From: Brooklawnia propionicigenes | Lineage (GTDB): Bacteria > Actinomycetota > Actinomycetes > Propionibacteriales > Propionibacteriaceae | Assembly: GCF_030297015.1 (NCBI RefSeq) | Contig: NZ_AP028056.1 | Location: 1,560,939-1,624,938, forward strand | Direction: 5' to 3' | DNA length: 64,000 nt | Part shown: positions 32,732 through 42,395 of the stretch, piece by piece | Numbering within the stretch: position 1 is the first letter of the stretch | How the letters are laid out: the number at the start of each line of letters is the position of its first letter | Program-made: the position numbers and the translations under genes | The notes under the pieces: model-generated | The model's input: only the letters and a program-made list of their open reading frames with translations | The model's database searches: none | Told to the model about the DNA's origin: nothing

Positions 32732-33922
32732 TCAGCCGAGCAGCTCGGCGGCCTGGCGGACCATCGCCAGTTCTTCATTGGTGGGCACCACCAGCACGGC
32801 TACCGACGAGTCGGGAGCCGAGATGATGCGGGCCTGCTTGCTGCGTTGCGCGTTGGCTTCCTCGTCCAGCTTCACACCGAAAACACCCAGCCGTGCGCAG
32901 ACCTCGGAACGGACCGTGGCGGCATTCTCGCCGACGCCGGCGGTGAAGGACAGCGCGTCCAGCCCACCCAGCAGGGCGGCATAGCCACCGATGTAGAAGA
33001 CGAGGCGATGAATGTAGACATCCAGCCCGAGCCTCGCCTGCTCGTCGCCGGCGTTGATCGCCGTCTCGACATCGCGCATATCGGTATGACCGGTCAAGCC
33101 GAGCATGCCGGAACGCTTGTTGAGTTCGTCGTCGATCTCGGCGCAGCTCAGGCCGAGCTCGCGGTTCAGATAGCCGACGATGCCGGGGTCGATGTCACCG
33201 GAGCGGGTGCCCATCACCAGACCGGCGAGCGGGGTCAGGCCCATCGACGTCTCGATCGCGTGGCCGGAGTCGACGGCCGACACGGATGCTCCGTTGCCGA
33301 GATGGCAGACGATCTGCTTGAGGTCATCGCGTCCGAGCAGCTTGGCCACTTCCTGGCTGACGAACTGGTGCGAGGTGCCGTGGAAACCGTACTTGCGGAT
33401 CCGGGTGCGCTTGGCCAGGTCGACGTCAATCGCGTAGGTGTAGGCCTCGGCTGGGAGCCGGGCGAAGAAGGCGGTGTCGAAGATGCCGACGTGCGGAACA
33501 TCGGGCAGCAGCTTGCGGGCCGCTTCGATGCCGGAGATGCCTGCAGGGTTGTGCAGCGGAGCCAGCGGCGACAGCTCGCGCAGGGTATCGACGACTTCGT
33601 CGGTGACCAGGGTGGGATCGGCGAACTTGTCACCGCCGTGCACGGCGCGATGGGCCACAGCGATGGTCGATGTCAGGTCGGGGCCGTGCTCATCGAAAAG
33701 ACCGAAAACGGTGGCCAGTGCAGTCTCGTGGTCGTCGAGCAGTTGGTCGACGTGGTGTTCGCCGATCTCGCCGACCAGCACTTCGTGATCAACTGTGCCG
33801 GTGGTGCCGGTCGCGATGCGCTGCACGATGCCCTTGGCTAGCAGTTCTTCGCTCTCGACGTCGATCATCTGGTATTTGATCGAACTTGACCCACAATTCA
33901 GGACGAGGATCGGCTTGGACAT
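32732..33922 (-). CDS. ackA: Acetate kinase
   Basis: Cytosolic kinase interconverting acetyl phosphate plus ADP and acetate plus ATP. A full-length 396-residue protein: VLNCGSSSIKYQMI at the phosphate-1 site, AHRAVHGG, PLAPLHNPAG, FDTAFFARLP, YGFHGTSHQFV, HLGNGAS and late FTAGVGENAATVR. Works with Pta, encoded 1.5 kb upstream on the same strand, but a membrane protein gene lies between them. Single ATG with a purine run (AAGGGGG) somewhat far upstream. Confidence 0.96.
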   Translation of the reverse strand: MSKPILVLNCGSSSIKYQMIDVESEELLAKGIVQRIATGTTGTVDHEVLVGEIGEHHVDQLLDDHETALATVFGLFDEHGPDLTSTIAVAHRAVHGGDKFADPTLVTDEVVDTLRELSPLAPLHNPAGISGIEAARKLLPDVPHVGIFDTAFFARLPAEAYTYAIDVDLAKRTRIRKYGFHGTSHQFVSQEVAKLLGRDDLKQIVCHLGNGASVSAVDSGHAIETSMGLTPLAGLVMGTRSGDIDPGIVGYLNRELGLSCAEIDDELNKRSGMLGLTGHTDMRDVETAINAGDEQARLGLDVYIHRLVFYIGGYAALLGGLDALSFTAGVGENAATVRSEVCARLGVFGVKLDEEANAQRSKQARIISAPDSSVAVLVVPTNEELAMVRQAAELLG

Positions 33923-34010: not shown

Positions 34011-35294
34011 CTACAGGCGGACATGAATGTTCAGCTTCTCCATCGCGTAGGCCAGTGCGAAACAGGACAGCACGGCGACGGCGGGGAACAAGGCACCGGC
34101 GAATAGCTCACCGAAACGCTCGGTCACCAGCGGTTCCCAGTAGGGCCACAACCAGACATTGTGTGCTCGCCCGACGATGGTCTCGGAGAACGCATAGACC
34201 ACGATCGCATGACCGCCGAGCACCACCAGTGGACGCAGCAGACCACCCTTGCTGCTCGCCGGAATGATGAGCGCGAGCAGCACCAGCTCCAGTACGGCGA
34301 TGCCGCCGGTCACCAGGACGAAGCTGGGCGTCCACAGGTACTTGTTCAGTGGGATGACGACGGCGAGCACGACGCCGAGTATCAGCGTGCCGGCGCCCAG
34401 CGTCGCGAGCCAGCCGATTCTGCGCAGACCGCTCGTCGCCCGCGAGATCTCCCCGGCGAGGTAGCCGATATAGACCGAGCTGGCAGCCTGTATCCAGCCG
34501 TGCGGATTCTCCGGATTGGCTCCGATGCCCAGCACGGTGGTGTCGAACCAGTCGGCCAGATTGGCATCCTGAGTGAAGGATCCTGCCGGTACACCGGCAG
34601 GTGAGTACCACAGCCAGGCCGCGGTGATGCCGAGGAAGAAGACAGCCATGATCGACCACTGCACGTAGCGGGGCGTGCGGGTGACCAGCCAGACGAGCAG
34701 GTAGGCGATCGCGGTCATCTGCAGGATGCCCGCCGGATAGATGTCCATCGGGACCATGTACTTGTAGGAGACCAGCACGCAGCCGAGCATGAACAGCTTG
34801 AATGTGCGCCCCAGTGCATTGCGCCAGCTTGTGCGGGTGGCGTAGGGCATCGCGGTGCCCATGGCGACCAGGAAGCCCGGGAAGACCGTGTCGGCCAGTG
34901 TCAGGCCGCTCCACTCGCTGTGCCCGAAGGCCCCGGGCAGGTACCAGTTGCCGGGCCAGTTGACGAAGACCATCAAGGCGATGGTCAGCCCGCGGAAGGC
35001 GTCCAGGGCATAGAAGCGGGGTGGCTTGGCCGGGGTCGCCTGCGGTGTTGCGGACGAGCCTGCGTCCGCGGGGCTGGCTGCGTCGGGCCGGGCCGGGCCG
35101 GTTTGCGGTTTGGTCACCGCATCGTCGCCGGTTCCCGGGCTGATCGGATAGGCCACCGGATCGTCGCCGGCGCCGGATCTGACCGTGTCGGCTGCCGATT
35201 CGGGCGCGGCACGGGCAGGCCCCCGCACTGCGGTGGTCTCGTCGTTCGCGGCCCGGCCGTAGACAGCCGTCTGTTCCTCGGACACGAGCGCCAT
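34011..35294 (-). CDS. HGSNAT-like acyltransferase family membrane protein
   Basis: A 427-residue membrane protein. A disordered, Ala/Pro/Thr-rich cytoplasmic N-terminus (about 1-90) precedes about ten membrane helices. The first helix region ALDAFRGLTIALMVFVNWPG and the following TLADTVFPGFLVAMGTAMP are the signature of the heparan-alpha-glucosaminide N-acetyltransferase-like (DUF1624/DUF5009) group, which moves acetyl groups across membranes. The start at 35294 is used since the upstream frame to 35501 overlaps pta and is non-homologous. Its place between pta and ackA suggests a possible link to acetyl units (inference). Confidence 0.8.
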   Translation of the reverse strand: MALVSEEQTAVYGRAANDETTAVRGPARAAPESAADTVRSGAGDDPVAYPISPGTGDDAVTKPQTGPARPDAASPADAGSSATPQATPAKPPRFYALDAFRGLTIALMVFVNWPGNWYLPGAFGHSEWSGLTLADTVFPGFLVAMGTAMPYATRTSWRNALGRTFKLFMLGCVLVSYKYMVPMDIYPAGILQMTAIAYLLVWLVTRTPRYVQWSIMAVFFLGITAAWLWYSPAGVPAGSFTQDANLADWFDTTVLGIGANPENPHGWIQAASSVYIGYLAGEISRATSGLRRIGWLATLGAGTLILGVVLAVVIPLNKYLWTPSFVLVTGGIAVLELVLLALIIPASSKGGLLRPLVVLGGHAIVVYAFSETIVGRAHNVWLWPYWEPLVTERFGELFAGALFPAVAVLSCFALAYAMEKLNIHVRL

Positions 35295-35430
35295 TCTTTC
35301 ACCCCGAAGGCGCTGCGCCAACGGCCCCGAACGCGGGCAGACGGCCAGCCCGCGGGGGATTGCGGCGTGAAGACGGCAGTGGCCGGGCAGCAGATCGCCA
35401 CCCGGCCACGAAGACTGCCGACGCGGCCGA

Positions 35431-37491
35431 TCAGATTCCGGTCTGTGCCTGGATCGCGGTGATAGCGACGGTGTTGACGATGTCAGCCACCAGAGCGCCA
35501 CGCGAGAGATCGTTGACCGGCTTGTTGAGGCCCTGCAGCACCGGGCCGATCGCGATCGCGCCGGAGGTGCGCTGAACGGCCTTGTAGGTGTTGTTGCCGG
35601 TGTTCAGGTCGGGGAAGATGAAGACCGTGGCCTGGCCTGCCACCTGGGAGCCGGGCATCTTCGACTTGCCGACCGCCGGATCCATCGCCGCATCGAACTG
35701 GATCGGGCCGTCCACCGCGAAATCGGGGTTGGTCTGCTTGACCAGTTCGGTCGCGGCAGCCACCGCGTCCACGTCTTCGCCCGAACCCGATGTGCCGGTC
35801 GAGTAGGACAGCATCGCGACGCGCGGCTCAATGTCGAAGGCCTTCGCCGTCGCCGCCGTGCTGATCGCGATCGTCGCCAGCTGCTCGGGGTTGGGGTTCG
35901 GGTTGACGGCGCAGTCGGCGAAGACGAGCACCTGCTCGGGCATGCACATCAGGAACGAACCCGACACCACTTTGACGCCCGGCTTGGTCTTGATGAATTC
36001 GAGGGCCGGACGAATGGTGTTCGCCGTGGTGTGGGTGGCGCCGGAGACCATGCCGTCTGCCATGCCCAGGTAGACCATCATCGTCCCGAAGTAGGACGGG
36101 TCGGTCATCTTCTCTCGGGCCTGCTCGATGGTGACACCCTTCTTGGCGCGCAACTCGGCGTACTTCGCCGCGAACTGATCGGCCAACTGGGGGTCGTGCA
36201 TCGACTGGACGCGAGCGCCGGTGATGTCGAAGCCCAGTGCGGCGGCGTCGGCGCGCACCTTGTCCTCTTCACCGAGCAGCACCAGATTGGCAACGCCGCG
36301 GCGCAGCAGGATCGAGGTGGCCTCCAGGATGCGGGGGTCTTCGGCCTCGGGCAGCACGATGGTCTTCTTGTCGCTGCGGGCCTTCTGCATGATCTGGTAT
36401 TCGAACATGCGCGGGGTGCGCAGGGCCGCGGTTTTGACGTCCAGGGCGCTCAGCAGCGCTGCTTCGTCCACGTTCTCGTGGAACAGGCGTAGGGCTTCGG
36501 CGTGCTTGCGGGGCGAACTCATCACCGAGCCCTTGAGATCGTGCAGTTTGGACGCCGTCCAGAAGGTGCCGCGCTGAACGAGCCCGATCGGCACCTGTAC
36601 CTTCAGGCCATCGAGCAACTTGCGGATCGAATCGGGCAGCGGATAGCCGCCGGTCAGGAAGATCGCCGCCAGGTTCGGGAAGCTGTCGGAGCTGTGGGCG
36701 GCCAGCAGGCCGGGTAGCAGGTCGGTGCGGTCGGACGCCGTCACGATCGAGCACTCCGGCTCGAGGCGGGTCAGCACATTGGGCAGGGTCATGCCGGCCA
36801 CCACGGTGCCCAGCGATTCGCGGTCGAGCGCTGATTCGTCGCCCATCAGGAACTTCGCACCCAAAGCCCGGAACTGAGCCCGCACGCTGGGGGCGCGCAG
36901 CAGCTCGTTCTCGGGCAGCGCCGCGCAGAAGCTGAGCCCCAGCGTGCCCAGTTCGGCGCGAACCTGGTCGATCGAGACCGGGTCGACGCGGTTGGCGATC
37001 ACGCCGATCACATGATTGTGCAGGTCCTCGAACTGTTTGGTGGCGTGCTCCACCGAGGCGGCCACCTCCTCGGGAGTGCGATCGCGTCCGCTCACCACCA
37101 GCAGCACCGGGGAGTTAAGGTTCGCCGCCACCCGGGCATTGAAGGCCAGCTCGGTCGGCGATGCCGCACCGATGTAGTCACTGCCGACCACGACGACCGT
37201 GTCGAAACGGTCCTGCAGCGCTCCGTACTTCGAGATGATTTCGCTCAGCGCAGCCTCGGGATCGTCCAGCGCAGCGTCGGTGAGCACGCCGATGGTCTCT
37301 TCGTAGGTCTGGTCGATACCCGAATGTGCCAGCAGTGCCTTGGCAACTTCGTCGTTGTCATCGCGGACCATCGGGCGGAAGACACCGACGGAATCCATCT
37401 GACGTGAGAGGGCCTCGATGAGGCACAGGGCGATGGCGCTCTTGCCGCCTAGCCCATCGGGGGATGTAACATACACGCTTTTGTTGGTCAC
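35431..37491 (-). CDS. pta: Phosphate acetyltransferase
   Basis: Converts acetyl-CoA and phosphate to acetyl phosphate. A long-form enzyme of 686 residues: an N-terminal P-loop/BioD-like domain (VYVTSPDGLGGKSAIAL), a middle DRTGG-type region (about 200-330) and the C-terminal PTA_PTB catalytic domain (about 365-680), with KTIVLPEAEDPRIL, MADGMVSGATHTTANT, DCAVNPNP, AMLSYSTGTSGSG and FPDLNTGNNTYKAVQR. The GTG at 37491 starts TNKSVYVTSPDG; the extension to 37536 is unlike the family. First of pta, HGSNAT-like, ackA on the minus strand, with a 136-bp gap after it. Confidence 0.94.
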   Translation of the reverse strand: MTNKSVYVTSPDGLGGKSAIALCLIEALSRQMDSVGVFRPMVRDDNDEVAKALLAHSGIDQTYEETIGVLTDAALDDPEAALSEIISKYGALQDRFDTVVVVGSDYIGAASPTELAFNARVAANLNSPVLLVVSGRDRTPEEVAASVEHATKQFEDLHNHVIGVIANRVDPVSIDQVRAELGTLGLSFCAALPENELLRAPSVRAQFRALGAKFLMGDESALDRESLGTVVAGMTLPNVLTRLEPECSIVTASDRTDLLPGLLAAHSSDSFPNLAAIFLTGGYPLPDSIRKLLDGLKVQVPIGLVQRGTFWTASKLHDLKGSVMSSPRKHAEALRLFHENVDEAALLSALDVKTAALRTPRMFEYQIMQKARSDKKTIVLPEAEDPRILEATSILLRRGVANLVLLGEEDKVRADAAALGFDITGARVQSMHDPQLADQFAAKYAELRAKKGVTIEQAREKMTDPSYFGTMMVYLGMADGMVSGATHTTANTIRPALEFIKTKPGVKVVSGSFLMCMPEQVLVFADCAVNPNPNPEQLATIAISTAATAKAFDIEPRVAMLSYSTGTSGSGEDVDAVAAATELVKQTNPDFAVDGPIQFDAAMDPAVGKSKMPGSQVAGQATVFIFPDLNTGNNTYKAVQRTSGAIAIGPVLQGLNKPVNDLSRGALVADIVNTVAITAIQAQTGI

Positions 37492-37560
37492 ATAGTGAAC
37501 ATACGACGATTCCGCGCAGTTGTCGCGGGGTTGCATGATTCGCCCGGCCCGCCGGCCCGG

Positions 37561-40107
37561 TCAGCAGCAGATGACCCGTTGCGAGGCGATATCGGAGTAG
37601 AGCACCAGCTCGTCGAACCGGGCCACATGCAGCACATTCGACAGGCCGGCCAGATCGGGCACCAGGTCGGCCAGCCGGTTGGGCCGGTCGGTCACCAGCT
37701 CCGGATGGAACGACACGTCGGGGCGCTGATCGAAGATCGCCGCGTAGAAGATGCCCGACTCCACCAGGTCCTGGAAGAAATGGCTGCCCTGGGACAGTTC
37801 GGGGATGAAGCCGCCCGCCGGATAGGTGAACTCCACCATCGCCGCCGCATTGCTGATCTCGGTGAAGTGCACCGGGATGCCGAGCGACGGGGAGGTGGTA
37901 CCCCAGCGTCCGGGAGCCATGATCATGAACGAACCGGCGGAGAGTAGCTTGTTGACCACGCCCATGCCACGCGCCACGGCATATCGGTCCTGCTGGCCCA
38001 GCTCCAGATAGGTGTCGGGACGAACCATCACCACATGGTCGATCGGCAGCCGCACGTTGCCGCCCATGAAACTGCCGCTGGATTCGAACAGCGTGTGCCG
38101 GGGGTCGGCGTCGGTGGGCATCGCGACCGCCTCGCCGAGCCCGCGGGTCTGCAAGGGGCGGCATTGCAGCAGGTTGATGCGTGGTTCGCCGTTCTCATTG
38201 ATGTTGACGGTGTATTCGATGTCGACCGGATAGTCGTAGGCCTCGGAGAGCTTGGCGAGGATATCGCGCATCAGCGGGGCGAAGTCGGTGTGGTGAATCA
38301 GGCCGCGGAAGTCGAGCACCTTCGGGGTCTGCCTGATCGGACGATTGTGTTCCCGCAGCCAGCGCAGCGTCTCGGTGTCGGTGGACACGAACAGCTCCCA
38401 GTCCGCCCGGATGTCGAGTTTGCGGATCTCGGCGAGCGGCTTGGTGACCTGTTTGTTCTCGTCCAGGCTCATCACGTCGACGTAGCGCTGGGTGTTGCGG
38501 GCGGCATCGGTGGTGTCGATCTCGCGGGTCGGATCGTCGAGGGTGATGAGTTTGGCGTGGTCGGCGATCGTGCGATCCACGGCGCGGGTGCCCAGGCCCA
38601 GCACCAGCCGCAGCATGCCGGCGTCCGGGTCGATGTCGGGGTCCCAGACATACAGGTTGGACGAATTCCCGACCCCGGCCGCGTGCGGGAAGAACAATCC
38701 CTGGTGGTGGTCTCCGCTGACCCGTTGCACCAGGATCGCCATCTGCTCGTCGGAGCTGTCGAGCCCCCGGTTGCGGCGGTATTCGAGGGCCTCACTGCTC
38801 ATCGCCGAGGCGTAGACGGTGCGCACCGCATCCTCGAGCGCGTGTAACCGCTCTTCGGGAGTGCCCTGATTGGCACAGAAGACCGATTCGTACTTGCCGG
38901 CGAAGGCATTGCCGAAGTTGTCTTCCAGCAACGAGCTGGAGCGGGCGATGATGGGGGATTGCCCGAAGTACTCGAGCATCGACAAGAACTGTTCGCGCAC
39001 CACCGGTGGGAAGCGCCCGGTGGCGAGTTTGCGGTTCAGTGAGGCGCCCGCGGTGAAGTAGCCGTCGTGGCTCTTCTGCTGCACCCACAGCTTCCACCAG
39101 CCGTTGGCGATGATGTAGGTGTAGAACAGGTCGCTGCCCAAGAAGTACGAGTCGTTCTGCTCCATTCGGGGGGTGAAGCGGGCTTCCGGATCGTGATCGA
39201 GGATCGCGTTGGCCACGATCATGCCCACCGACTTGCCGCCGATGTAGCCGGTGCCGATCTCGCGCATCGCCACCGTCAGCAGATCGGCCAGCGTCACGTA
39301 CTCGCGGCACAGCTCGACCACGCGTCCCTCGCGTCCGATGAACATGTCGATGAGTTCGTCGGCGGCTTCCCGCTGTACCGCGGCGTCCAGCGAGTCGAGC
39401 GCGGCCCAGCCCTGCTGGACGACGCGATGCCAGTGGTCGGGCGGATCGACCCGGTGCGAGGCGGCCGAGAAGAGTCGTGCGGTGGCCTCGCTGCTGGTGA
39501 TGGGATCGGCTTCGTCGCCACTGAGCAGGTGCGGGAAGAACATCGTCGGTGAATGCCGTAGCCAGACCTTCAATGGATGGACGTACGTCTCCCCGCCGAT
39601 GAGGTAGACATCGAGCAGCAGCTGGGTGGTGTCGCGGATCATCGCCAGGGTGGCGAACGTGTGCTCACGACGGATCAGCCCGAAGTAGGCGACCGTGTCG
39701 AGGTCGAACAGGTAGGGGCAGGTGACCTTGAAGAAGTTGCCGACGGCAAGATCGCTGCGCCAGGTGTACAGCAGCGAGGTCAGCAGATCGAAGACGTAGA
39801 AGGCGCCGAACCCCGTCTCGGTGATGATCTTGTGCACCGCCGAGGCAAAGCTCTCGAACCCCAACGACGCGTCCAGTTTGACGATCTCGACCCCGTCGAG
39901 GTCATCGAGCAGCGGGGCATGCGATCCGAAACGGAAGTAGACCAGCCGGCGCCCCTCGTCACGGGCGCGTTTGGCGAACGGCTGAATCAGCGCGCGGTAC
40001 TGGGAGAGACCGTCGACCTGCCAGACGACGTTGTCGCCGAGCCGCAAACCATCGAAGATGCGGTCGAGCCCCCTGATGCCCGTGCTCGCCCGGTTGTAGC
40101 TCTCCAT
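37561..40107 (-). CDS. PEP synthase-like ATP-grasp protein with a degenerate KaiC-like N-terminal domain
   Basis: An 848-residue cytosolic protein. Residues about 1-210 resemble a KaiC/RAD55 RecA fold (STGIRGLDRIFDGLRLGDNV), but the Walker A position reads VDGLSQYR, so ATP binding there is doubtful. About 285-650 is a PEP/pyruvate-binding ATP-grasp domain: TGYIGGKSVGM, IARSSSLLEDNFGNAFAGKY (Arg about 388), MAILVQRVSG and the closing LLQCRPLQTRG. The C-terminal about 190 residues contain APGRWGTTSPSLGIPV and LSQGSHFFQDLVESG. No phosphohistidine swivel motif (TGG...H) is seen, so it should not be a normal PEP synthase. Its reaction is unknown. Lies between serA and pta on the same strand. Confidence 0.82.
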   Translation of the reverse strand: MESYNRASTGIRGLDRIFDGLRLGDNVVWQVDGLSQYRALIQPFAKRARDEGRRLVYFRFGSHAPLLDDLDGVEIVKLDASLGFESFASAVHKIITETGFGAFYVFDLLTSLLYTWRSDLAVGNFFKVTCPYLFDLDTVAYFGLIRREHTFATLAMIRDTTQLLLDVYLIGGETYVHPLKVWLRHSPTMFFPHLLSGDEADPITSSEATARLFSAASHRVDPPDHWHRVVQQGWAALDSLDAAVQREAADELIDMFIGREGRVVELCREYVTLADLLTVAMREIGTGYIGGKSVGMIVANAILDHDPEARFTPRMEQNDSYFLGSDLFYTYIIANGWWKLWVQQKSHDGYFTAGASLNRKLATGRFPPVVREQFLSMLEYFGQSPIIARSSSLLEDNFGNAFAGKYESVFCANQGTPEERLHALEDAVRTVYASAMSSEALEYRRNRGLDSSDEQMAILVQRVSGDHHQGLFFPHAAGVGNSSNLYVWDPDIDPDAGMLRLVLGLGTRAVDRTIADHAKLITLDDPTREIDTTDAARNTQRYVDVMSLDENKQVTKPLAEIRKLDIRADWELFVSTDTETLRWLREHNRPIRQTPKVLDFRGLIHHTDFAPLMRDILAKLSEAYDYPVDIEYTVNINENGEPRINLLQCRPLQTRGLGEAVAMPTDADPRHTLFESSGSFMGGNVRLPIDHVVMVRPDTYLELGQQDRYAVARGMGVVNKLLSAGSFMIMAPGRWGTTSPSLGIPVHFTEISNAAAMVEFTYPAGGFIPELSQGSHFFQDLVESGIFYAAIFDQRPDVSFHPELVTDRPNRLADLVPDLAGLSNVLHVARFDELVLYSDIASQRVICC

Positions 40108-40123: not shown

Positions 40124-41296
40124 TCACGGCTCGATGACGCGGACCCGCAGGACACCTTCGATCTGTTCGATGCTGCTGCGCAGCGCGTCGGTGACCGGGC
40201 CCCTGACATCGATCATGGTCCACGCCAGCTCACCGCGTGATTTGTTCAGCAGGTTGGTGATGTTGATCCCGGCGTCGCCGATCAGAGCGGAGATCTCGGC
40301 CACCATGTTCGGCACGTTGACGTTCGCCACGACGATCCGGGTGGTGTCCGGCTCACGTGCCAGCACCGCGTCGGGGAAGTTCACCGAGTTGGAGATATTG
40401 CCGTTCTCCAAGAAGTCACGCAGTTCGTTGACAGCCATCGCTGCGCTGTTCTCCTCGGCCTCCACGGTGGACGCCCCGAGGTGCGGCAGCGCGACGACCT
40501 TCGGCCGGTTCAGCAGCTCCGCGCTCGGGAAATCGCAGACATAGCCGCGGATCGAGCCGGATTCCAGGGCCGCGACCATCGCCGGGGAGTCGACGATGCC
40601 GGCACGGGAGAAGTTCAGCACCAGCGCCCGCTGCTTCATCAGGGCCAGTCGTTCGGCATTGACCAGGCCTTGCGTGGCCTCGATCAGCGGTACATGCACG
40701 GTCAGCACGTCCGCTCTCCGGAAGACCTCGTCGATGGACGCCGCCCGCGTCACGTGCGAACTGAGTTGCCAGGCGTGCCGGATCGTGATCGCCGGATCGT
40801 AGCCGAGCACCTTCATGCCGAGCGCCTCGGCGGCATTGGCCACCTGGACGCCGACCTCACCCAGCCCGATCACACCCAGGGTTCGTCCGGGCAGCTCCCA
40901 GCCGACGAACTGCTTCTTGCCGGCCTCGACCGCGGCGTTGATCTCATTGTCATCCCCGGTGAGCTGGCGGGCGAACGCGGCTGCCGGGAGGATGTTCCGG
41001 GCGCCCAGCAGGATGCCCGCCAAGACCAACTCCTTGACGGCATTCGCGTTGGAGCCGGGGGTGTTGAAGACCACGACTCCGCGTCCGCTCAGCTGGTTGA
41101 CCGGGATGGTGTTGGTCCCGGCCCCGGCCCGGCTGATCGCCAGCACCGAATCCGGGATCTCGACCGAATGCAGGTTGGCCGACCGGACGAGCCAGGCGTC
41201 CGCATTGTCGACGTGAGGACCCACCTCATAGCTCTCGGGCAGTTTCGAGAGGCCTCGTGCGCTGATGGAGTTCAGCGTCTTGATGCTGTAGTTCAT
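40124..41296 (-). CDS. serA: D-3-phosphoglycerate dehydrogenase, short form with ACT domain
   Basis: First step of serine synthesis, NAD-dependent oxidation of 3-phosphoglycerate. A 390-residue protein: substrate-binding domain with RAGAGTNTIPV, the Rossmann motif GVIGLGEVGVQVAN, catalytic Arg in NFSRAGIVD and His in LPHLGASTVEAEEN. An ACT domain (about 315-390) begins at RIVVANVNVPNMVAEISALI and may bind serine. Starts 16 bp after serC on the same strand, so the two pathway enzymes are co-transcribed. The next gene (37561) follows after 16 bp and may be read through. Confidence 0.94.
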   Translation of the reverse strand: MNYSIKTLNSISARGLSKLPESYEVGPHVDNADAWLVRSANLHSVEIPDSVLAISRAGAGTNTIPVNQLSGRGVVVFNTPGSNANAVKELVLAGILLGARNILPAAAFARQLTGDDNEINAAVEAGKKQFVGWELPGRTLGVIGLGEVGVQVANAAEALGMKVLGYDPAITIRHAWQLSSHVTRAASIDEVFRRADVLTVHVPLIEATQGLVNAERLALMKQRALVLNFSRAGIVDSPAMVAALESGSIRGYVCDFPSAELLNRPKVVALPHLGASTVEAEENSAAMAVNELRDFLENGNISNSVNFPDAVLAREPDTTRIVVANVNVPNMVAEISALIGDAGINITNLLNKSRGELAWTMIDVRGPVTDALRSSIEQIEGVLRVRVIEP

Positions 41297-41312: not shown

Positions 41313-42395
41313 TCAGGCGTGGACGCGTTCGAACTCCTTCATGAACTCGATGAGCGCGTCGACACCGGCTTGTGGCATCGCGTTGTAGATCGATGCCCGC
41401 ATGCCACCCACCGAACGGTGCCCGGCCAGATTGGTCAGGCCGGCCTGTTCGGCCTGCGCCACGAACTGCTTGTTGAGGTCGGCGTTGGCCATCAGGAAGG
41501 GAATGTTCATCCAGCTGCGCGAATCATGGGCCACCGGGTTGGAGTAGAAGTCGGAGGCATCCAGGAAAGCGTAGAAGGTTTCGGCCTTGGTGCGATTGCG
41601 CACGGCCAGGCCGTCCAGTCCACCCTGGGCGATGACCCACTCGAGGATCTTGCCGAGCAGGTAGATCGAGAAGGTGGGCGGGGTGTTGAGCATCGAGTTG
41701 TTCTCCGCCATCAACTGGTAGCTCCAGATCGACGGGGTGTCGAGGCGGGCCCGATCGAGCAGGTCGTCGCGCACGATCACCACAGCCATCCCGGCCGGCC
41801 CCATGTTCTTCTGGGTGCCGGCGTAGATGACGCCGAACTTCGACACGTCGAGCGGGCGCGACAGGATCGTCGAACTCATGTCGGCGACCAGTGGCACATC
41901 ACCGGTCTCGGGAATGTAGCCGAATTCGACACCACCGATGGTCTCGTTCGGGGTGTAGTGCAGGTAGGCGGCGCCCTCGGTGGGCTGGATCGTGCCCTGC
42001 GCCGGGGTCGTGGTGTAGTTGGACGCCTTCTCGTCGGTCACGGCGATCGGATTCAGGCCGAACCTCTTGGCCTCCTTGAACGCCTTGGTGCCCCACTGCC
42101 CGGTCAGCACGAAATCGACGGTGTCGCCCGGCTTCGAAAGATTGAGCGGGACGCCGGCGAACTGCCCGAAAGCGCCGCCCTGAATGAACAGCACCCGGTA
42201 GTTGTCGGGGATGCCCAAGATCTGGCGGAGCAGCTCTTGGGTGTGGTCGGCGCAAGCGACGAATTCCTTGCTCCGGTGCGAGACCTCGGCAACAGACATG
42301 CCGGTGTGCTGCCAATCGGGCAACTCGGCCTGGGCTTGTTCGAGGACCTCCAGCGGCATCATCGCGGGACCGGCAGAAAAGTTAAATACGCGCAC
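41313..42395 (-). CDS. serC: Phosphoserine aminotransferase
   Basis: PLP-dependent class V aminotransferase converting 3-phosphohydroxypyruvate to phosphoserine. A 360-residue protein beginning VFNFSAGPAMMPLEVLEQA; QGGAFGQFAGVPLNL, ADMSSTILSRPLDV, the PLP lysine in YAGTQKNMGPAG and the C-terminal GHRSVGGMRASIYNAMP are characteristic of SerC. First gene of the serC-serA pair. Upstream (42396-42628) lies a hairpin for the converging ribosomal operon and no other gene. Confidence 0.95.
   Translation of the reverse strand: MRVFNFSAGPAMMPLEVLEQAQAELPDWQHTGMSVAEVSHRSKEFVACADHTQELLRQILGIPDNYRVLFIQGGAFGQFAGVPLNLSKPGDTVDFVLTGQWGTKAFKEAKRFGLNPIAVTDEKASNYTTTPAQGTIQPTEGAAYLHYTPNETIGGVEFGYIPETGDVPLVADMSSTILSRPLDVSKFGVIYAGTQKNMGPAGMAVVIVRDDLLDRARLDTPSIWSYQLMAENNSMLNTPPTFSIYLLGKILEWVIAQGGLDGLAVRNRTKAETFYAFLDASDFYSNPVAHDSRSWMNIPFLMANADLNKQFVAQAEQAGLTNLAGHRSVGGMRASIYNAMPQAGVDALIEFMKEFERVHA

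Follow-up and report, generated by a model that had tools for sequence, protein, structure and literature searches.

A PPDK_N-type ATP-grasp protein of Brooklawnia propionicigenes with a KaiC-like domain and a candidate phosphohistidine, from a family recurrently neighboured by glutamate dehydrogenase genes

What might a protein do that carries the ATP-grasp domain of phosphoenolpyruvate (PEP) synthase, but has neither the PEP/pyruvate barrel nor a recognizable phosphohistidine domain? The question was raised by one gene in the window, i.e. the stretch of 64,000 nucleotides of the Brooklawnia propionicigenes chromosome analysed here. The host genome is complete, in a single contig of 3.21 Mb.

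37561..40107, minus strand: whole gene, 848 aa, ATG start (open reading frame, Pfam PPDK_N match, more than 580 homologues, structural model)

At least 586 relatives of the 848-aa protein were confirmed by tblastn, and the best 80 of these were mostly full length, with 52-98% identity over the 848 residues. Among the matches listed, relatives belonged to Actinomycetota, Bacillota, Balneolota, Synergistaceae and Methanoregula. As full-length homologues occur across phyla, the open reading frame is a genuine gene rather than a spurious one. The whole-chain AlphaFold model, built from 77 homologues, had a pLDDT of 86 and a pTM of 0.81.

The central part of the protein was the most readily assigned.

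38134..39270, minus strand: residues 280-658, PPDK_N-type ATP-grasp domain with catalytic residues kept (Pfam, VIA, conservation, alignment to rifampin phosphotransferase, RPH, and PEP synthase)
38941..38943, minus strand: codon of R389, equivalent of the catalytic Arg117 of RPH (HMMER alignment to 5fbs/5hv6; invariant)

Pfam PPDK_N (PF01326) matched residues 288-665 with an E-value of 8.4e-40 (137.5 bits against a cut-off of 27), and the structural comparison of the ATP-grasp residues with RPH and PEP synthase gave VIA Z-scores of 20-24. In RPH, Lys22, Arg117, Thr136 and Glu297 matter for catalysis or Mg binding (PMC4844700); they correspond to K292, R389, S408 and E631 of the 848-aa protein, the correspondence resting on HMMER alignments for R389 and S408, on the motif for K292 and on partial alignments for E631. 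The same HMMER alignments place R117, G132 and T136 of RPH at R389, G404 and S408. K292, R389, E631, Q648 and R650 were invariant in all 93 members compared, across three architectures (see below). The original prediction of an intact ATP-grasp PEP/pyruvate-binding domain was thus borne out by the PPDK_N match and by the catalytic set found in 93/93 members, and ATP binding by this domain is predicted from its fold and residues.

An ordinary PEP synthase would also need the barrel domain, and no PEP-utilizers_C (PF02896) barrel was found in the 848-aa chain, which ends after its C-terminal domain. Three PEP-utilizers_C matches were found in the genome, in frames of 887, 621 and 852 aa, each with PF00391 as well, so that no stand-alone PEP-utilizers_C occurred in the host genome, nor was one found among the recurrent neighbours of the family. 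Elsewhere in the genome, a PPDK-like gene possesses PPDK_N, PF00391 and PF02896. The rifampin-binding domain is likewise absent, the C-terminal domain following directly after the ATP-grasp domain. With NCBIfam, the protein scored far under every PEP synthase and RPH cut-off, reaching 34.7 bits against 739.75 for the whole-protein PEP synthase model TIGR01418, and 24.4 bits against 999 for RIF_Ptrans_rph. Under family models, members rank as no more than weak relatives of PEP synthase, though these have no PEP/pyruvate barrel. As the barrel is missing from the chain, a PPDK-like gene lies elsewhere and the genome holds no free barrel, the ordinary PEP synthase reaction is unlikely to be performed by the 848-aa chain alone, in agreement with what had been proposed.

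The N-terminal part has a different fold.

39457..40107, minus strand: residues 1-217, KaiC/RecA-like fold (Foldseek and VIA matches to KaiC)
39997..40023, minus strand: residues 29-37, WQVDGLSQY, at the Walker A site (motif count, conservation)

The model of residues 1-217 matched KaiC with VIA Z-scores of 19-21 (187-209 residues aligned, rmsd 2.6-3.4), FlaH with 18.3 and other RecA-superfamily ATPases with about 18. A Pfam search with residues 1-199 alone matched no family; the KaiC-like fold is given by the model. A KaiC/RAD55-like domain without a working Walker A had been proposed, and the motif G.{4}GK[ST] was indeed found in the first 120 aa of none of 73 KaiC-type representatives. The altered site is itself conserved (W[QK]V[DN]S..xY): W29 is invariant, and D32 and Y37 occur in at least 90% of 77 sequences, in which D107, an Asp at the Walker B place, is also invariant. 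Such conservation of the altered site is explained more readily by some role apart from ATP hydrolysis than by decay. Compared to the RecA-like ATPases KaiC and FlaH, the likeness lies in the fold of residues 1-217 (VIA Z 18-21), whereas here Walker A is absent (0/73), the domain is single and it is fused to an ATP-grasp domain.

The C-terminal domain had been described as distinct and as no phosphohistidine domain.

37564..38118, minus strand: residues 664-848, C-terminal domain, swivelling beta/beta/alpha-like (model and a second look with VIA)
37780..37782, minus strand: codon of H776 (GSHFFQDL), candidate phosphohistidine (89/93 members; helix N-cap in the model)

Its distinctness was confirmed, as the domain had no Pfam match at all. 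At the sequence level, the absence of a phosphohistidine domain also stood: PF00391, with its GG.[TS].H motif, was not found, and hhalign comparisons of 71 C-terminal domains with 30 His domains, run on the whole domain and on the core region, locally and globally, gave only 0.2-2.8%, the His domains of EI, PPDK and PEP synthase used as positive controls matching one another at 97.7-99.5%. Modelled alone, the domain reached a pLDDT of 93 and a pTM of 0.91; with this model, Foldseek returned nothing at E ≤ 0.001, and its top rows, to CD38 (prob 0.1-0.2), were discounted as fortuitous. The fold, position and conservation of the domain weaken this negative. In the second look with VIA, swivelling beta/beta/alpha domains were near the top of the list (Z 4.8-6.5), including the pyruvate kinase C-terminal domain (Z 6.5), the RPH His domain (residues 756-864; Z 6.2 over 108 residues at 3.6 A), the PPDK His domain (residues 375-507; Z 5.0-6.0 over 113-117 residues, six entries) and EIN-Ntr (Z 4.8). 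Z-scores of 5-6.5 are modest, are also produced by shared topology without kinship, and would not stand alone; the same list also holds a DRTGG protein (Z 6.5) and chaperonin apical domains. In the full model, residues 4-465 of PEP synthase 2ols align with residues 283-848 (VIA), so that the domain is in the right place in the chain, namely where PEP synthase and PPDK carry their phosphohistidine domain.

Within this domain, H776 N-caps the helix 776-783, which lies between strands 756-760 and 787-791 in the model; the start of this helix is what we take to be the topological place of the catalytic His of PPDK. R734 and E759 are present in 93/93 members. The four members without H776 are related short paralogues in which Arg replaces it (PYGTRFF; L113:7779-9656, L114, L115 and L120), so that some members do without the His; these four are possibly inactive or work differently, judging from the substitution. 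Taken with the model, these features indicate that the C-terminal domain is probably a far-diverged swivel domain with a candidate phosphohistidine, and that its description as no phosphohistidine domain, although right at the level of sequence profiles, was probably wrong in substance.

Profile searches found the shared core (approximately residues 280-810) in three architectures. The KaiC type, of 848-900 aa, includes the Brooklawnia gene and forms one side of a tree branch with a support of 99. A type of about 1060 aa combines a different N-terminal region with a C-terminal nucleotidyltransferase domain (PF01909), as observed at the ends of the members at L107:7053-10238 and L172:6491-9685. 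A GAF domain was considered for the N-terminal region of this type and rejected, Pfam giving no match up to an E-value of 0.1. The short type, of 575-600 aa, has no extra domain. In Bacteroidota, the 1060-aa gene often comes with a short paralogue (570-600 aa) in translational coupling, with a gap of 0 to -4. In this coupled paralogue, R500, T507 and D544 are changed, and K292, R389, E631 and H776 are kept; from these substitutions, it is possible that it serves as a regulatory partner.

Genomic context was then considered, at the scale of the Brooklawnia locus and of the family.

41313..42395, minus strand: serC, phosphoserine transaminase (NCBIfam TIGR01364 above cut-off)
40124..41296, minus strand: serA-like D-3-phosphoglycerate dehydrogenase gene, 16 bp upstream of the gene (Pfam/NCBIfam)
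35431..37536, minus strand: pta, phosphate acetyltransferase (AAA_26, DRTGG and PTA_PTB domains), 24 bp downstream of the gene (Pfam/NCBIfam)
32732..33922, minus strand: ackA, acetate kinase (TIGR00016 above cut-off)

The placement between serC-serA and pta-ackA held as proposed, all genes being on the same strand with gaps of 16 and 24 bp on either side of the gene. A scan of the serC-serA-gene-pta cluster for promoters and terminators yielded no more than chance. Between pta and ackA lies a gene for a NagX/HGSNAT-like membrane acyltransferase (34011-35501, minus strand), whose GTG start, as listed, falls within the end of pta; its true start is probably further in. The order serC-serA-gene-pta was common only to the same genus. 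The role at the 3-carbon/acetate junction of metabolism that had been read from this position therefore fits the context within the genus, but not the family as a whole, in which glutamate dehydrogenase recurs instead, and serC-serA/pta-ackA was rejected as a general family context.

Neighbours within four genes were clustered over 111 loci, to which 192 loci had been collapsed at 75% identity. The most frequent was Glu/Leu/Phe/Val dehydrogenase (GDH; 30/111 loci), the next families, with six loci each, being ABC ATPases, a metallophosphoesterase and the coupled paralogue; glnA, amtB, gltBD, asnB and carB were also recurrent. For the 1060-aa type, GDH was present at 22 of 27 loci, always at position -1 or -2 and on the same strand, in Bacteroidota and Bacillota and often in an operon-like arrangement. 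It was found at 8 of the 73 KaiC-type loci (five on the same strand at 1-2 genes, the remaining three more distant or on the other strand) and at 0 of the 9 loci of the short type. The eight KaiC-type cases compare to 0.16-0.36 expected by chance, a rough Poisson estimate that takes gene placement as uniform. In Micropruina (L083), gdhA ends 7 bp before the family gene, and in two Clostridia (L097, L098) gdhA follows it at 10-21 bp. On the tree, the GDH linkage needs 10 changes, eight of them within the KaiC type, and is thus not one inherited cluster. Among 37 relatives, a strong GDH gene was present in 9/9 carriers of the family compared to 14/28 non-carriers (Fisher p = 0.007, kinship ignored). 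As GDH is the commonest neighbour, a place in amino-nitrogen metabolism is more likely for the family than a PEP synthase role, and the association gives the family its first testable role.

Several smaller features accompany these clusters. The coupled short paralogue usually lies between the 1060-aa member and GDH (L167, L171-L175, L177, L178, L180, L182). The metallophosphoesterase gene adjoins the 1060-aa member but lies on the other strand (L167, L171, L172, L178, L182, L183 and L175:9277-10191); the pairing of such a phosphatase with a putative kinase may be no more than coincidental synteny. The PF01909 domain of the 1060-aa type suggests nucleotidylylation in the same GDH-linked clusters.

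Taken together, the reading that we consider best, and hold tentatively, is an ATP-dependent phosphotransferase of the PEP synthase/PPDK/RPH type, with a diverged swivel and no acceptor domain of its own, tied to amino-nitrogen metabolism. The ATP-grasp domain, whose fold and residues are observed, would bind ATP; the swivel-like domain would dock to it, H776 taking up the phosphoryl group, and would pass this group to an acceptor outside the chain. This acceptor would be a partner protein, or else a metabolite from glutamate and amino-nitrogen metabolism. From gene neighbourhood, GDH would be the leading candidate for a protein acceptor. The KaiC-like domain, without a P-loop, would not be expected to perform the usual ATP hydrolysis and is probably an interchangeable module for sensing or assembly, other members having a different N-terminus with a nucleotidyltransferase, or neither. 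In the genus Brooklawnia, the gene appears to have been placed into the serC-serA-gene-pta cluster. A bolder form of this reading, which we regard as somewhat unlikely, is that members are ATP-driven His phosphocarriers with interchangeable modules that covalently regulate GDH across many anaerobic bacteria, as well as in some archaea; that they would then form a phosphotransfer system of a new kind for nitrogen control is, to the same degree, a speculative proposal. If GDH is modified, a central enzyme of nitrogen metabolism would come under a new form of covalent control, like the adenylylation of glutamine synthetase in kind. Against the reading considered best stand the distance of 62 kb between the gene and GDH in the host genome, the 65 of 73 KaiC-type loci with no GDH within four genes, the lack of a His-domain match in profile and Foldseek searches, and the four paralogues with Arg at position 776.

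The acceptor could instead be a small molecule phosphorylated by the swivel, such as a 2-oxo or amino acid intermediate of GDH, SerA/SerC or alanine dehydrogenase, a possibility that we judge rather improbable. Metabolic neighbours (GDH, serC-serA, GOGAT and an alanine-dehydrogenase-like gene at L123) would suit such a dikinase, and split two-component dikinases exist (HpeHI, PMC12167813); if it were one, its substrate would be an unknown metabolite close to glutamate. The short 575-aa forms, however, have no acceptor domain. The accompanying suggestion that the swivel/ATP-grasp surface, or else the N-terminal domain, holds the substrate is similarly improbable, and interchangeable N-terminal domains would be surprising if substrate binding fell to one of them. 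A more doubtful alternative dispenses with phosphoryl transfer altogether: a silent or allosteric regulator, in which the ATP-grasp domain senses nucleotides and the KaiC-like domain forms a ring or dimer. The lost Walker A, the lack of a His domain recognizable by sequence, the Arg in four paralogues and the altered core of the coupled Bacteroidota paralogues (R500, T507, D544) are all consistent with it, but nucleotide sensing would not need a full ATP-grasp catalytic set without variation in all three types, nor the almost complete retention of H776, R734 and E759.

Two further readings would change the chemistry, and both appear very unlikely. Outside the PPDK group, most ATP-grasp enzymes are ligases, and a C-terminal domain devoid of profile similarity to His domains could be the substrate domain of a ligase or carboxylate kinase rather than a swivelling phosphocarrier; yet Pfam and the fold both put the ATP-grasp domain in the PPDK_N branch, whose characterised members use a phosphohistidine swivel. 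The least probable reading, by a little, is a PEP synthase or PPDK that borrows its PEP/pyruvate barrel in trans from another protein. It would account for the shared ATP-grasp superfamily, for the alignment with 2ols over the ATP-grasp and C-terminal domains and for alanine- and serine-related neighbours in some genomes, but it meets no free PEP-utilizers_C in the host genome or among recurrent neighbours, and a genome in which all three domains already occur together in a PPDK-like gene.

For the favoured phosphotransferase reading, the closest known systems are RPH, PEP synthase and PPDK, with which the family shares the PPDK_N ATP-grasp domain, matching catalytic residues and, probably, a swivelling-type domain in the same chain; it differs by having no barrel and no rifampin-binding domain, a C-terminal domain that sequence does not identify as a His domain and an added KaiC-like domain. 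HpeHI, a two-component small-molecule dikinase with split domains, likewise has dikinase parts over more than one chain, but there the swivel and acceptor share a chain (PMC12167813), whereas here the ATP-grasp and swivel-like domains do; HpeI, an isolated ATP-grasp domain (9goj), gave a weak match. In EINtr (PtsP), glutamine binding to the GAF domain inhibits autophosphorylation (PMC4848567). It is, by analogy only, also a phosphotransfer enzyme with a sensory N-terminus and a tie to nitrogen status (PMC4848567), but EINtr uses PEP and a barrel, whereas the present family has an ATP-grasp domain and no PF00391 match. Neither HpeHI nor EINtr is put forward as a relative beyond shared superfamily domains.

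Concerning distribution, no published account of the family was found in the open-licence PMC literature under KaiC-PPDK_N fusion or GDH-PEP synthase operon. Members of any architecture were present in 48/391 genomes of a Clostridia sample, 31/299 of a Bacillota phylum sample, 23/296 of a Bacteroidota-centred sample (around a Balneolales genome) and 4/148 of a sample of one archaeal phylum; within its own class, the family was rare (1/395 sampled genomes, namely the Brooklawnia genome itself). Phyla are intermixed in the gene tree, the Methanoregula member grouping with members from actinomycete MAGs (L026, L048, L039, L063), a pattern that suggests transfer, also between domains, or mis-binned or contaminated contigs. 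The 848-aa protein had no match in the defence-system library, and a PADLOC model was touched only by the nucleotidyltransferase part of a 1060-aa relative. In one Clostridia member (G1040:C394:1862-4377), the KaiC-like and ATP-grasp parts are split from each other, and the KaiC-like match contains one TGA; the locus may be a pseudogene, a sequencing error or a pair of separate chains.
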